A stretch of 64,000 nt of DNA, taken from contig CAJWBH010000012.1 in NCBI GenBank assembly GCA_913019975.1, forward strand, positions 1-64,000, given 5' to 3'. Shown one piece after another: positions 33,583 to 36,488 of this stretch. The first letter of the stretch is position 1. Every line of letters starts with the position of its first letter. The position numbers and the translations under genes were made by a program. This DNA comes from Thalassolituus maritimus. GTDB taxonomy: Bacteria; Pseudomonadota; Gammaproteobacteria; Pseudomonadales; Oceanobacteraceae. The notes beneath the pieces were generated by a model. It saw only the letters and a list, made by a program, of their open reading frames with translations, did not search any database and was not told the DNA's origin.

Positions 33583-34647
33583 TTACATAGAGATATGCGG
33601 CAGGGTACTGACGACCTCTCCGTGTTTGTCGATGATCAGCACCTCAGCCTCAGGCATATTCTCTATCAGCGTAACGCCCTTTTCTGGGCCCAGTACAAAC
33701 ACGGCAGTCGCCAATGCATCAGCGAGGTAGGCTCGCGAGGTCAGCACGGTGACGCTACGACTCAGATTGGCAGGATAGCCAGTATCCGGGTCGATAATGT
33801 GATGGTAGCGAGTGCCGTTTTTCTCAAAGTAGCGCTCGTAGTCCCCGGAGGTTGCGACGGCACCGTTGGCGACCGGCAGCACGGCGATCAGACTTTCTGG
33901 GTTGTCTGGATGTTGTATGCCGACTTTCCAGCGCTTGGCACTGTTCTTGGCATTGTCTTTAATAGAGGCTCCCGAGCTGGCGTACAGATCACCGCCCGCA
34001 TTGATATAGAACACCTCGAAACCGGCGTTACGGATAACCTGCACCGCGCGATCAATCGCATAGCCTTTAGCAATGCCTCCGAGGCCAATCTGGGTTCCTG
34101 CCTTCGTCAGAAAAACAGTCTGTTTTTCTTCATCTAAGGCGACGTGTTGATAATTAATGGAAGCGGCCGCGCGCTTTAATTCGGCCGCTTCAGGGATCGT
34201 TTTTTTTCGAAAGTCCCAGAGCTTGCCCGCGCTTTTAAAGGTGATATCAAACTTTCCGCTACTAAGCTCTGATATGCGCAGAGCTTCGCTGATTAAACGA
34301 AATACTTCAGGTGACACCGGAACGGCTTTCTCGCCCGCTGCCTGATTTACCGAACTGATTTCGCTGTTGGGTTCCCATTCAGAGAATACCTGCGTGACGC
34401 GTTTGATTTCATCGATGGCGCTGTCTATTGCCGTATTGGCTGCCTTCGCGGAGTGGCTATCGCTGGTAAGAAGAATCTGAAAATCGACCGTGGTGGTCAT
34501 CAGGCTGGTGGACCTGTTGACCGCAGGCGTTGCCTGATTTTCTGAAGTGCCGCTGATGCGTTCAGCGGCATGTAACGGGTTAACAAAGAGGCTCAGGCTA
34601 ACCAGAAAAATACACCGGGCACGCAGTTGTCTGAGCGGAAAGACCAC
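33583..34647 (-). CDS. apbE: FAD:protein FMN transferase ApbE
   Basis: ApbE transfers FMN from FAD onto a Thr/Ser of extracytoplasmic proteins carrying a Dxx(S/T)GAT motif. Visible features are an N-terminal signal-like stretch ([22 protein letters not shown]), [29 protein letters not shown] (flavin binding), [22 protein letters not shown] and a [12 protein letters not shown]-terminal motif, so the enzyme looks complete. The start is uncertain: the GTG at 34647 gives a sensible signal peptide 4 bp after the TlpA-like stop; an ATG at 34746 would overlap that gene by 95 bp. It is the last gene of the DUF4266-DUF3570-TlpA-ApbE operon, where its likely target is the DUF3570 protein. Confidence 0.92.
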
Positions 34648-34651
34648 GGAA

Positions 34652-35107
34652 TTATTGCTCTGCCGACAGAGTATCGAGAGCGGCTTTAAAGTCGTCGTCA
34701 GTGCGTCGACCGCGATACACCGCATCTCCTTTGCTGTTGAGCACAATCAGAGTCGGCGTGCCCCGCACTTCGAACTGATCTCCGATGATCAGATCCGGGT
34801 CACTCAGGGATGGCCAAGGGAGTGCGCGCTCTACTTCTACCTGGCGACCATCTTCTGGATTTTTATTCACATTAAGACCAAGCCAGGTAAATTCCGGGTG
34901 GTCTTTTAATTCCTTCTTTAAGTGTGGAATTTCTTCCATGCAGTAGCCGCACCAGGATGCCCAGACAATTAATACAACCGGTTTTTCGGGCTGATTAAAA
35001 TCTATGGAGTAGGTGTCGTTATTCAGCGTTGAGTAATTTCCTGCGAGCGATGCGATTGAAAATAATAGCGCTGAAAAAGCGGATAGAAAAACAGAAATTA
35101 ATTTCAT
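34652..35107 (-). CDS. TlpA-like periplasmic thioredoxin-fold protein
   Basis: The 151-residue product has a signal peptide (MKLISVFLSAFSALLFSIASLA), the redox motif WASWCGYCMEEIPHL with C53 and C56, and the cis-proline loop VRGTPTLIVLN. It should be a periplasmic thiol oxidoreductase. The start at 35107 forms an ATGA overlap with the stop codon of DUF3570, so translation is probably coupled. Possible partners are the DUF3570 protein, the CGC tail of the DUF4266 lipoprotein, or ApbE substrates; this is inferred from the operon. Confidence 0.88.
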   Translation of the reverse strand: MKLISVFLSAFSALLFSIASLAGNYSTLNNDTYSIDFNQPEKPVVLIVWASWCGYCMEEIPHLKKELKDHPEFTWLGLNVNKNPEDGRQVEVERALPWPSLSDPDLIIGDQFEVRGTPTLIVLNSKGDAVYRGRRTDDDFKAALDTLSAEQ

Positions 35108-36273
35108 AATGCGGTGTACCAACCTAGTGTCAGCCAGTAAAAATTCAGGTCATCTGAACGACGATACATATTAAAGCCGATATCGTAATCTGATGGTGCT
35201 TTGGTGAACCAGCCTGCTTTCCGGTAGGACAGAACCAGTCCCGCGCTGTGGCCATCAAAATGTCCGAGGTCAGAGTCACTGGTCTGGTAAGTCTGCGGTG
35301 CACTGAATTGTTCTGAAAAATATTCTGTGGCCGTTTGTGTGTAAAACCGATAGCTAGGTTCCAGTGTCAGTTGCCCGTCATTCAATCGATAGAAATAGCG
35401 AGCTTCGAATGCCTGACCATCCAGCTCCCAGCTGTCCTGATAATGACTGAGGCCCAGCTGTACGGAGTCTTCACCGATGGCGTGTTTATAACGAACGGAG
35501 ACTGTATTGCGGACGCGTTCATCAGGAAGGACTTCAAAGCCACGCTCACCGTTATCGAAGAGTACTGAATTAAATGAGGTGGCTAACATGCCGCGCTGGC
35601 GGCTGTAGACCCAGGACAGGTTCATCAGCGATACCGGTGATAGCGTCTGAGTCAGGCTGAAGGCCCCGGTGGCAGTATCGCGCGGTTCGTCGGTTTCTTT
35701 GCTGCCGTCGTAGCGGATCATGCGCACCGTATCATCATAAAACTGAAAGTCTGCACTCAGCTGGGTCGACTCTTCGTTTAATGATTGAGAAATACCAAAT
35801 CCATAACCGGTGCTGCGGTAAGCGTATTCCTGACCGTAACTGGTATGCAGAGTGACCCCCGTGCGGCTGTCACTGCGATACTTCCAACGCCCTTCGAGAT
35901 TGAAGCGTCCGGGGTTATAACCGGTCGCGCCAGAGACGGTTTCTGCTTTATCGCGGGCGTCATCGTAAGAGGCTGCGGTGACCAGATCGCCCACGGCTTT
36001 AAAGCTGGCGGCGTTATTTTCATTCAGTCGTTGCTGAAACAGGAGAATACCTTCGTAGATGGTCGCATCTTCTTCGATGGTTGGGTTACCCCCTGAACCA
36101 CCATCATCTTCCTGCTGGTAAACAATCCCCCGGGCGGCAAAGATGCTGTCGAGTTCATCTGTCGTAGGGGCAGCCGCCTGAACAGCTGTCGTTACAGCAA
36201 TGGCACAAGCGATAGTCAGTATTCGCAGGAGATAAGCAGGGCGAACTGCTGTGATCAGACGTGTCAGTAACAC
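35104..36273 (-). CDS. DUF3570 outer-membrane protein with near-flavinylation motif
   Basis: The 389-residue product matches the DUF3570 family: signal peptide ending QAA-APT, an N-terminal periplasmic segment, then alternating aromatic strands typical of a beta-barrel and a terminal WLTLGWYTAL. The periplasmic segment contains D96-LVTAAS and E111-TVSGAT. The second differs from the ApbE target consensus DxxSGAT only by E for D; the candidate acceptor is T117. The start is the GTG at 36273: GGAGG lies 6 bp upstream, whereas the earlier TTG at 36279 directly abuts it. The GGAGG is formed by glycine codons of the overlapping DUF4266 gene (10-bp overlap). A flavin role is inference. Confidence 0.82.
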   Translation of the reverse strand: MLLTRLITAVRPAYLLRILTIACAIAVTTAVQAAAPTTDELDSIFAARGIVYQQEDDGGSGGNPTIEEDATIYEGILLFQQRLNENNAASFKAVGDLVTAASYDDARDKAETVSGATGYNPGRFNLEGRWKYRSDSRTGVTLHTSYGQEYAYRSTGYGFGISQSLNEESTQLSADFQFYDDTVRMIRYDGSKETDEPRDTATGAFSLTQTLSPVSLMNLSWVYSRQRGMLATSFNSVLFDNGERGFEVLPDERVRNTVSVRYKHAIGEDSVQLGLSHYQDSWELDGQAFEARYFYRLNDGQLTLEPSYRFYTQTATEYFSEQFSAPQTYQTSDSDLGHFDGHSAGLVLSYRKAGWFTKAPSDYDIGFNMYRRSDDLNFYWLTLGWYTAL

Positions 36274-36488
36274 CCGCAACCTCCACCACCACCGCCGGTA
36301 AATACACCGGATGCGCCTTCGCGGGCACTGTATACATCGGCTTCGATTTCGCTCTTCAGGGGCGTGCTGTCGAACGCCATATCCGGCTGAGACAGGCGCT
36401 CTCGCTCGTTAAAGCGTACTGGGGTACAGGCCGAAGCGGATACAACTAGTAAAGTCAGAATGCCGCAGCCCAGATATTTAGTATTCAT
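36264..36488 (-). CDS. DUF4266 small lipoprotein with Gly-rich CGCY tail
   Basis: The 74-residue product has a lipoprotein signal with lipobox SASAC (C21) and the segment PVRFNERERLSQPDM expected of DUF4266. Its end is a run of six glycines followed by C71-G-C73-Y. Two exposed cysteines at a flexible terminus could be thiol substrates of the TlpA-like protein encoded two genes downstream, or a metal or cofactor site. First gene of the four-gene operon. Function is unknown; DUF4266 usually occurs beside DUF3570. Confidence 0.8.
   Translation of the reverse strand: MNTKYLGCGILTLLVVSASACTPVRFNERERLSQPDMAFDSTPLKSEIEADVYSAREGASGVFTGGGGGGCGCY

Follow-up and report, generated by a model that had tools for sequence, protein, structure and literature searches.

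The question raised by this locus is whether a compact bacterial operon carries its own enzyme for fixing flavin mononucleotide (FMN) to a protein of the outer membrane, and, if it does, on which side of the membrane the flavin would sit and what it would do there. The operon lies at 33583..36488 of a 64,000-nucleotide stretch of Thalassolituus maritimus DNA (assembly GCA_913019975.1, contig CAJWBH010000012.1, positions 1 to 64,000), which is referred to here as the window. A first-pass annotation of the window had named a DUF4266-DUF3570-TlpA-ApbE operon and proposed DUF3570 as the FMN target. Open reading frames (ORFs) and Pfam matches confirmed a tightly packed set of four minus-strand genes in that order, with the following features.

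36264..36488, minus strand: DUF4266 lipoprotein, 74 amino acids (Pfam PF14086, 1.4e-14)
35104..36279, minus strand: DUF3570, a predicted outer-membrane beta-barrel, 391 amino acids (Pfam PF12094, 2.3e-26)
35968..35988, minus strand: candidate acceptor site 1, DLVTAAS, residues 98-104, the Gly-to-Ala form, at the site-1 position of the family
35923..35943, minus strand: predicted acceptor site 2, ETVSGAT, residues 113-119, acceptor T119, a strict motif
34652..35107, minus strand: TlpA/ResA-like thioredoxin, active site WCGYC (Pfam Thioredoxin 2.9e-11, AhpC-TSA 4.2e-10)
33583..34647, minus strand: ApbE, flavin adenine dinucleotide (FAD):protein FMN transferase (Pfam PF02424, 1.1e-86)

The TTG start of DUF3570 (36279) overlaps the 3' end of DUF4266, an ATGA is common to the DUF3570 stop and the probable thioredoxin start, and the probable ApbE start lies directly past the thioredoxin stop. 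The thioredoxin ORF reaches a TTG at 35122 and the ApbE ORF reaches 34746; the ATG at 35107 and the GTG at 34647, respectively, are the more likely starts. DUF3570 matched PF12094 with 93 bits against a cut-off of 25, and its closest named record was from T. maritimus DSM 24913 (96% over DUF3570). Both motifs were present as first described, with residue numbers that had been given two too low when counted from the TTG start. Inspection by eye found a lipobox-like SASAC in DUF4266, whose Gly-rich tail ends in GGGGGGCGCY, and a signal peptide without a lipobox in ApbE. The window ApbE aligned with solved ApbE structures across TSGDYER, HHIIDP and ADALATA, indicating that the catalytic blocks are kept.

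A system of this composition has been described by Méheust et al. 2021 (PMC8238504; statements on this paper refer to passages of its main text), in which the DUF3570 of Chlorobium luteolum was flavinylated by its cognate ApbE at two [S/T]GA[S/T] sites. A flavinylated DUF3570, the main idea of the first-pass annotation, was therefore already known, and the choice of DUF3570 as ApbE target is supported both by this relative and by the acceptors found beside ApbE in all 13 loci of the window clade described below. The paper counts 227 clusters with DUF3570 in which the four-gene set comes with DsbD and 316 in which it does not, links the set to electron-transfer genes, and calls the function of the system uncertain. 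The window operon is like these ApbE-DUF3570-thioredoxin-like-DUF4266 clusters in its four families, in a DUF3570 with acceptors of the [S/T]GA[S/T] kind (in the window one strict, the other with Ala replacing Gly), and in the C-terminal C-x-C of DUF4266; in content it matches the 316 DsbD-free clusters, and it groups with them since it does not show the DsbD that marks the other subtype. The published thioredoxin-like family, PF13899, was not among the Pfam matches of the window thioredoxin (PF00085, PF08534, PF00578, PF13098 and PF13905). Leaving aside the thiol relay considered below, it is likely that the operon belongs to the published system, flavinylation included. No mention of DUF3570, DUF4266 or PF12094 was found outside Méheust et al. 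2021 in the literature searched, and the name DUF3570 does not occur in a 2024 follow-up that models other ApbE targets (PMC11334425).

When the mature window DUF3570 was shuffled 20,000 times, [DE]xx[ST]GA[ST] appeared in 1.0% and [ST]GA[ST] in 6.7% of the shuffles, so the motif alone is modest evidence; it is conservation, and not the presence of a motif, that constitutes strong evidence. Searches with the Pfam model found DUF3570 in 71/194 genomes of the order, and the window DUF3570 as query found it in 29/44 genomes of the family and 41/369 of the class (E up to 1e-8). From five sets of 20 regions, many of them overlapping, together with the window and the three relatives (L009-L011) obtained from 49 candidate stretches in a related-loci search on genome contigs, 91 distinct DUF3570 proteins were assembled; these represent chosen places and not the full hit list. 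Four unusual proteins were set aside and 87 were aligned. Some of the stretches end at contig ends, and neighbour counts are limited to the available stretch.

In this alignment the acceptor of site 1 is Ser or Thr in 86/87 proteins, the leading residue is Asp or Glu in 86/87, and the Ala before the acceptor is kept in 80/87, while the Gly position holds Gly in 59, Ala in 15 and Ser in 13. At least one strict [S/T]GA[S/T] stands in the loop of 69/87 proteins (18 have none), and at least one relaxed [S/T][GAST]A[S/T] in 82/87. A strict site 2 is confined to some clades, with none listed for type IV and type VI DUF3570. In the window protein one motif is strict (SGAT) and the other, TAAS, carries Ala in place of Gly; each stands at a position shared with the family. 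DLVTAAS, at first regarded as a near-motif, is not incidental, as it stands at the principal site of the family. Replacing the Gly by Ala in the motif of a fumarate reductase keeps approximately 50% of flavinylation, and an Asp-to-Ala change has a minor effect (Bertsova 2019, as reported in passages of PMC12052999); site 1 of the window is for this reason best read as a weaker second site, and not as a coincidence.

The tree placed 13 loci, including near-identical pairs (L164/L165 and L167/L168), in a single window clade on a long branch (support 100/100). DUF4266, DUF3570, thioredoxin and ApbE were present in that order in 13/13 of these loci. Site 1 reads [T/S]AAS throughout, the leading Asp being replaced by Val in L199; the acceptor Thr of site 2 was found in 13/13, and the strict [S/T]GA[S/T] in 11/13. 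The flavin segment, that is, the 30 residues spanning both sites, is the most conserved stretch of DUF3570 in this clade: among 12 members its mean pairwise identity was 87%, whereas the mature protein reached 59% and the best stretch outside this segment 68%, and 21 of its 30 columns were invariant. Two features set the clade apart from the clusters of Méheust et al. 2021, namely Ala in place of Gly at site 1 (13/13 loci) and a thioredoxin gene between DUF3570 and ApbE; it is a distinct, new variant. The first-pass annotation had proposed testing for a conserved motif beside ApbE; this holds within the clade at site 2, but the strict form is not family-wide there, and the conservation that does run through the family is that of site 1 in its relaxed form, where the Gly is variable.

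Some observations speak against flavinylation as read here. Both window sites fall short of a perfect Dxx[S/T]GA[S/T], 5/87 DUF3570 proteins are without even a relaxed loop motif (four of these have S or P replacing the Ala of site 1), and the Gly of site 2 has been lost in L162 (SAAT) and in L011/L180 (SQAT), tallied here as 2/13 clade members, despite an ApbE next door. Flavinylation at T119 is nonetheless highly probable, and flavinylation at S104 as well is an evenly balanced prospect.

The side of the membrane on which such a flavin would be exposed depends on the topology of DUF3570, which we infer to be, very probably, an outer-membrane barrel. The sequence hallmarks are a signal peptide, amphipathic strands, short turns alternating with longer loops, and an aromatic or hydrophobic C-terminus; the last residue is F, L, Y or W in 72/87 proteins, and a stricter C-terminal beta-signal pattern fits only 26/87. 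Drawing strands by hand on the 87-row family profile gave sixteen, and the lengths of their turns and loops suggest a 16-stranded barrel with both sites in the beta3-beta4 loop: beta3 ends in site 1, and site 2 falls within the beta3-beta4 connection on the loop side. Two strands precede beta3 on this profile, so the motifs do not lie ahead of the barrel strands as first proposed. All seven turn-side connections have medians of 2 to 4 residues, although the last ranges from 3 to 12, and of the eight loop-side connections five have medians of 18 to 29 residues; those after beta5 and beta11 are constant at 5 and 7 residues and strongly conserved. Columns conserved to at least 80% numbered 24/217 on the loop side and 2/131 on the turn side (Fisher p 0.0006, a guide only, as the rows share ancestry and the profile was being viewed when the strands were placed), and inside strands 13/98 versus 2/106.

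With the penalty set to 14 or 16, an automatic count found 13 strands beyond site 1 in six of seven groups, an odd number in keeping with a surface position. Several results weigh against this topology. On the family profile the automatic count varied from 14 to 21 with the penalty, reached 16 at one setting and did not fix parity; the window clade profile gave 17, 15, 12, 8, 7 and 6 strands after site 1 over six penalties, and never 13; and single sequences divided odd/even as 49/38, 43/44 and 39/48 at three penalties. The loop-side connection beta1-beta2 is short, with a median of just 2 residues (range 0 to 20), the length of one turn-side connection is as variable as 3 to 12, and searching the PDB with a profile of 56 DUF3570 proteins returned no hits at E up to 1. 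Since the strand-count program did not settle parity, the case for the surface side is built on the lengths of turns and loops. Barrels as a rule expose their loop side to the outside; the flavin would accordingly sit at the cell surface or within the outer half of the lumen and not at the periplasmic mouth, where it had first been placed; on these grounds the outer face is somewhat favoured for the flavin loop. The main text of PMC8238504 is without the words barrel, porin or extracellular face, and its sole use of "outer membrane" concerns siderophore transporters.

DUF4266 and DUF3570 occurred in the same 71/194 genomes of the order (lists compared by eye), and DUF4266 lay within 1.5 kb of 85/87 DUF3570 genes. 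Among the loci studied there were 84 different DUF4266 proteins, of which 83 ended in a C-x-C tail after a Gly-rich run. The sole exception is in L068 (DUF4266 at 6249-6443, DUF3570 at 4923-6203), where in addition Phe replaces the site-1 acceptor and the available stretch contains no ApbE, one case of joint loss. A thioredoxin was located within 4 kb of 71/87 DUF3570 genes, and ApbE within the available stretch for 65/87. Of the 71 genomes with DUF3570, 30 were checked for ApbE and all were positive, a weak test given that 7/14 control genomes were positive too. One DUF3570 group had appeared to be free of ApbE; this was dropped as an artefact, the count having taken in just ApbE genes on the same strand and no more than 5 kb away, since in several loci of the group ApbE is convergent or farther away. 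Two further arrangements were seen: L044 carries two near-identical DUF3570 copies, each with thioredoxin and DUF4266, and L051 carries two divergent copies, with DUF4266 at one only. A DsbD homologue was found on another contig of the genome (C22, 278 bits).

From these components we infer the following mechanism. Periplasmic ApbE would attach FMN from FAD to T119, and S104, with its Gly-to-Ala change, would probably be flavinylated less efficiently. Attachment would most likely take place on unfolded DUF3570 en route to the BAM machinery, after which the protein would fold into the predicted 16-strand barrel with its flavin or flavins in the beta3-beta4 connection. The lipid-anchored DUF4266, with its Cys-Gly-Cys tail, could serve as a tethered dithiol arm carrying electrons between the TlpA-like thioredoxin and the flavin, while a DsbD-type protein from another part of the genome would serve the thioredoxin. 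The barrel would act as an outer-membrane electron port. A role for the thioredoxin and the CGC lipoprotein as thiol partners was part of the first-pass annotation and agrees with a proposal in PMC8238504, where a thioredoxin/flavin hybrid takes electrons from DsbD and the C-x-C of DUF4266 may cycle. We regard a thiol relay to the flavin as neither more nor less probable than its absence, and a net outward flow of electrons as tentative, a little short of even. Against the scheme, DUF4266 was missing within 1.5 kb for 2/87 DUF3570 genes (that of L082 and one of the L051 pair), DsbD_TM matches were confined to C22 and C1 (the latter below the cut-off) with none on the window contig C12, and no electron relay across the barrel was identified.

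The DUF3570 module was also found in at least five other contexts, identified by scanning one representative per neighbour family: with a cytochrome-like protein and a DUF1501 protein, with HZS_alpha-type and outer-membrane protein (OMP)-like genes, with two-component regulators, with a RoxA-like cytochrome, and with a convergent gene pair of which one member is weakly DUF1501-like. These contexts do not appear in the main-text passages of PMC8238504, and they suggest that a general module is combined with various redox partners outside the cytoplasm. In the first, a protein of approximately 759 amino acids and a DUF1501 protein precede the module (L079/L191, L074, L075, L077, L078, L084, L171 and L173); in L079 the larger protein had cytochrome c matches over the cut-off, with PSCyt3 and PSD1 just below. 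An 820-amino-acid family lies upstream of the module in L085, L086 and L088 and downstream in L067, and the member scanned, in L086, gave a RoxA-like cytochrome c match of 1.8e-20.

The type III loci (L181, L182, L183, L185, L186, L198 and others) group with the window clade (support 87/86, midpoint root) and are likewise relaxed at the site-1 Gly (Gly in 5/19). Their order is HZS_alpha-type lipoprotein, SH3/OMP protein, small OMP, thioredoxin, DUF4266 and DUF3570; unlike the window they have large extra genes, and ApbE was found in 9/19 stretches, convergent and adjacent or approximately 6 to 10 kb off. The HZS_alpha-type lipoprotein (about 880 amino acids) scored 59 bits in L176, the sole representative scanned; in hydrazine synthase alpha, HZS_alpha forms the middle domain, and no work joining apbE with hydrazine synthase was found in the literature searched. 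Several type III loci have divergent PSD2-like (below cut-off), LamG-type and unassigned genes, with ApbE about 10 kb away.

The same genome holds a second DUF3570 cluster (G000 C9, L001/L079/L191), which likewise has DUF4266, DUF3570 and ApbE and two sites at the same positions. Its DUF3570 is 19% identical to that of the window. Unlike the window, its sites are strict (ETMSGAS and VLMSGAS, the latter without a leading Asp or Glu) and a cytochrome-like protein and a DUF1501 protein lie upstream; no thioredoxin was found in the 18 kb of L191. Unlike other clades, the window clade has no recurring redox partner gene nearby. An AstE/AspA-type deacylase gene with long low-complexity-like ends is situated just upstream of the window operon (36608-38074), and such a gene adjoins the operon in 7 loci from 4 genomes.

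These neighbours bear on the direction of electron flow. The flavin might oxidise a partner at the cell surface and pass electrons inward through the CGC arm to the thioredoxin, as the links of other clades to cytochrome/DUF1501 pairs, to an HZS_alpha-type protein and to a RoxA-like cytochrome (in the representatives scanned) would allow. We consider inward flow unlikely, as no such partner recurs near the window clade and PMC8238504, in the passages considered, suggests DsbD as the electron source.

A second alternative is that the flavin serves folding or assembly and not electron export, with the thioredoxin and the CGC lipoprotein providing thiol quality control and FMN acting in sensing or as a structural cofactor. 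Barrel assembly is often aided by small lipoproteins, the window operon has no terminal oxidoreductase, and DUF4266 and thioredoxin keep close to most DUF3570 genes (85/87 within 1.5 kb and 71/87 within 4 kb, respectively). The mature window DUF3570, however, contains no cysteine, several relatives adjoin cytochrome-like or propeller proteins, and the links published in PMC8238504 are to electron-transfer genes, so that this role appears rather improbable. That the motif is merely decaying in the window clade, with ApbE serving instead the three FMN_bind matches of the genome or the second DUF3570 with its two strict sites, would account for the Gly replacements (13/13 at site 1, 2/13 at site 2) but is very unlikely, since the flavin segment is the most conserved part of DUF3570, acceptors and ApbE are kept in 13/13 loci, and the genome has two further ApbE genes, one of them beside the second DUF3570.

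Returning to the electron port, MtrCAB-type conduits likewise combine an outer-membrane barrel with redox cofactors, in their case multihaem cytochromes; the window operon has none, and the comparison concerns how such a device works, with no membership claimed. Known outer-membrane electron ports rely mostly on haem. A 16-strand barrel bearing covalent FMN at the cell surface, possibly folded into the lumen, and fed from the periplasm by a lipoprotein with a swinging Cys-Gly-Cys arm would be a haem-free thiol-to-flavin port, adapted clade by clade to partners such as cytochrome/DUF1501 pairs, HZS_alpha-type proteins and RoxA-like cytochromes; we offer this full picture as a doubtful but conceivable one.

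The flavinylated DUF3570 and its gene set were known before; the window-clade variant, the finding that the flavin segment is its best-conserved part, the co-occurrence of DUF3570 and DUF4266, the count of C-x-C tails and the hint of an outer-side flavin are new. If these proteins are flavinylated, searches with the strict [S/T]GA[S/T] miss ApbE targets, as the 18/87 DUF3570 proteins without a strict loop motif illustrate. If the port is real, a covalent-flavin barrel paired with a dithiol lipoprotein would be a widespread haem-free route, DUF3570 being present in 71/194 sampled genomes of the order.

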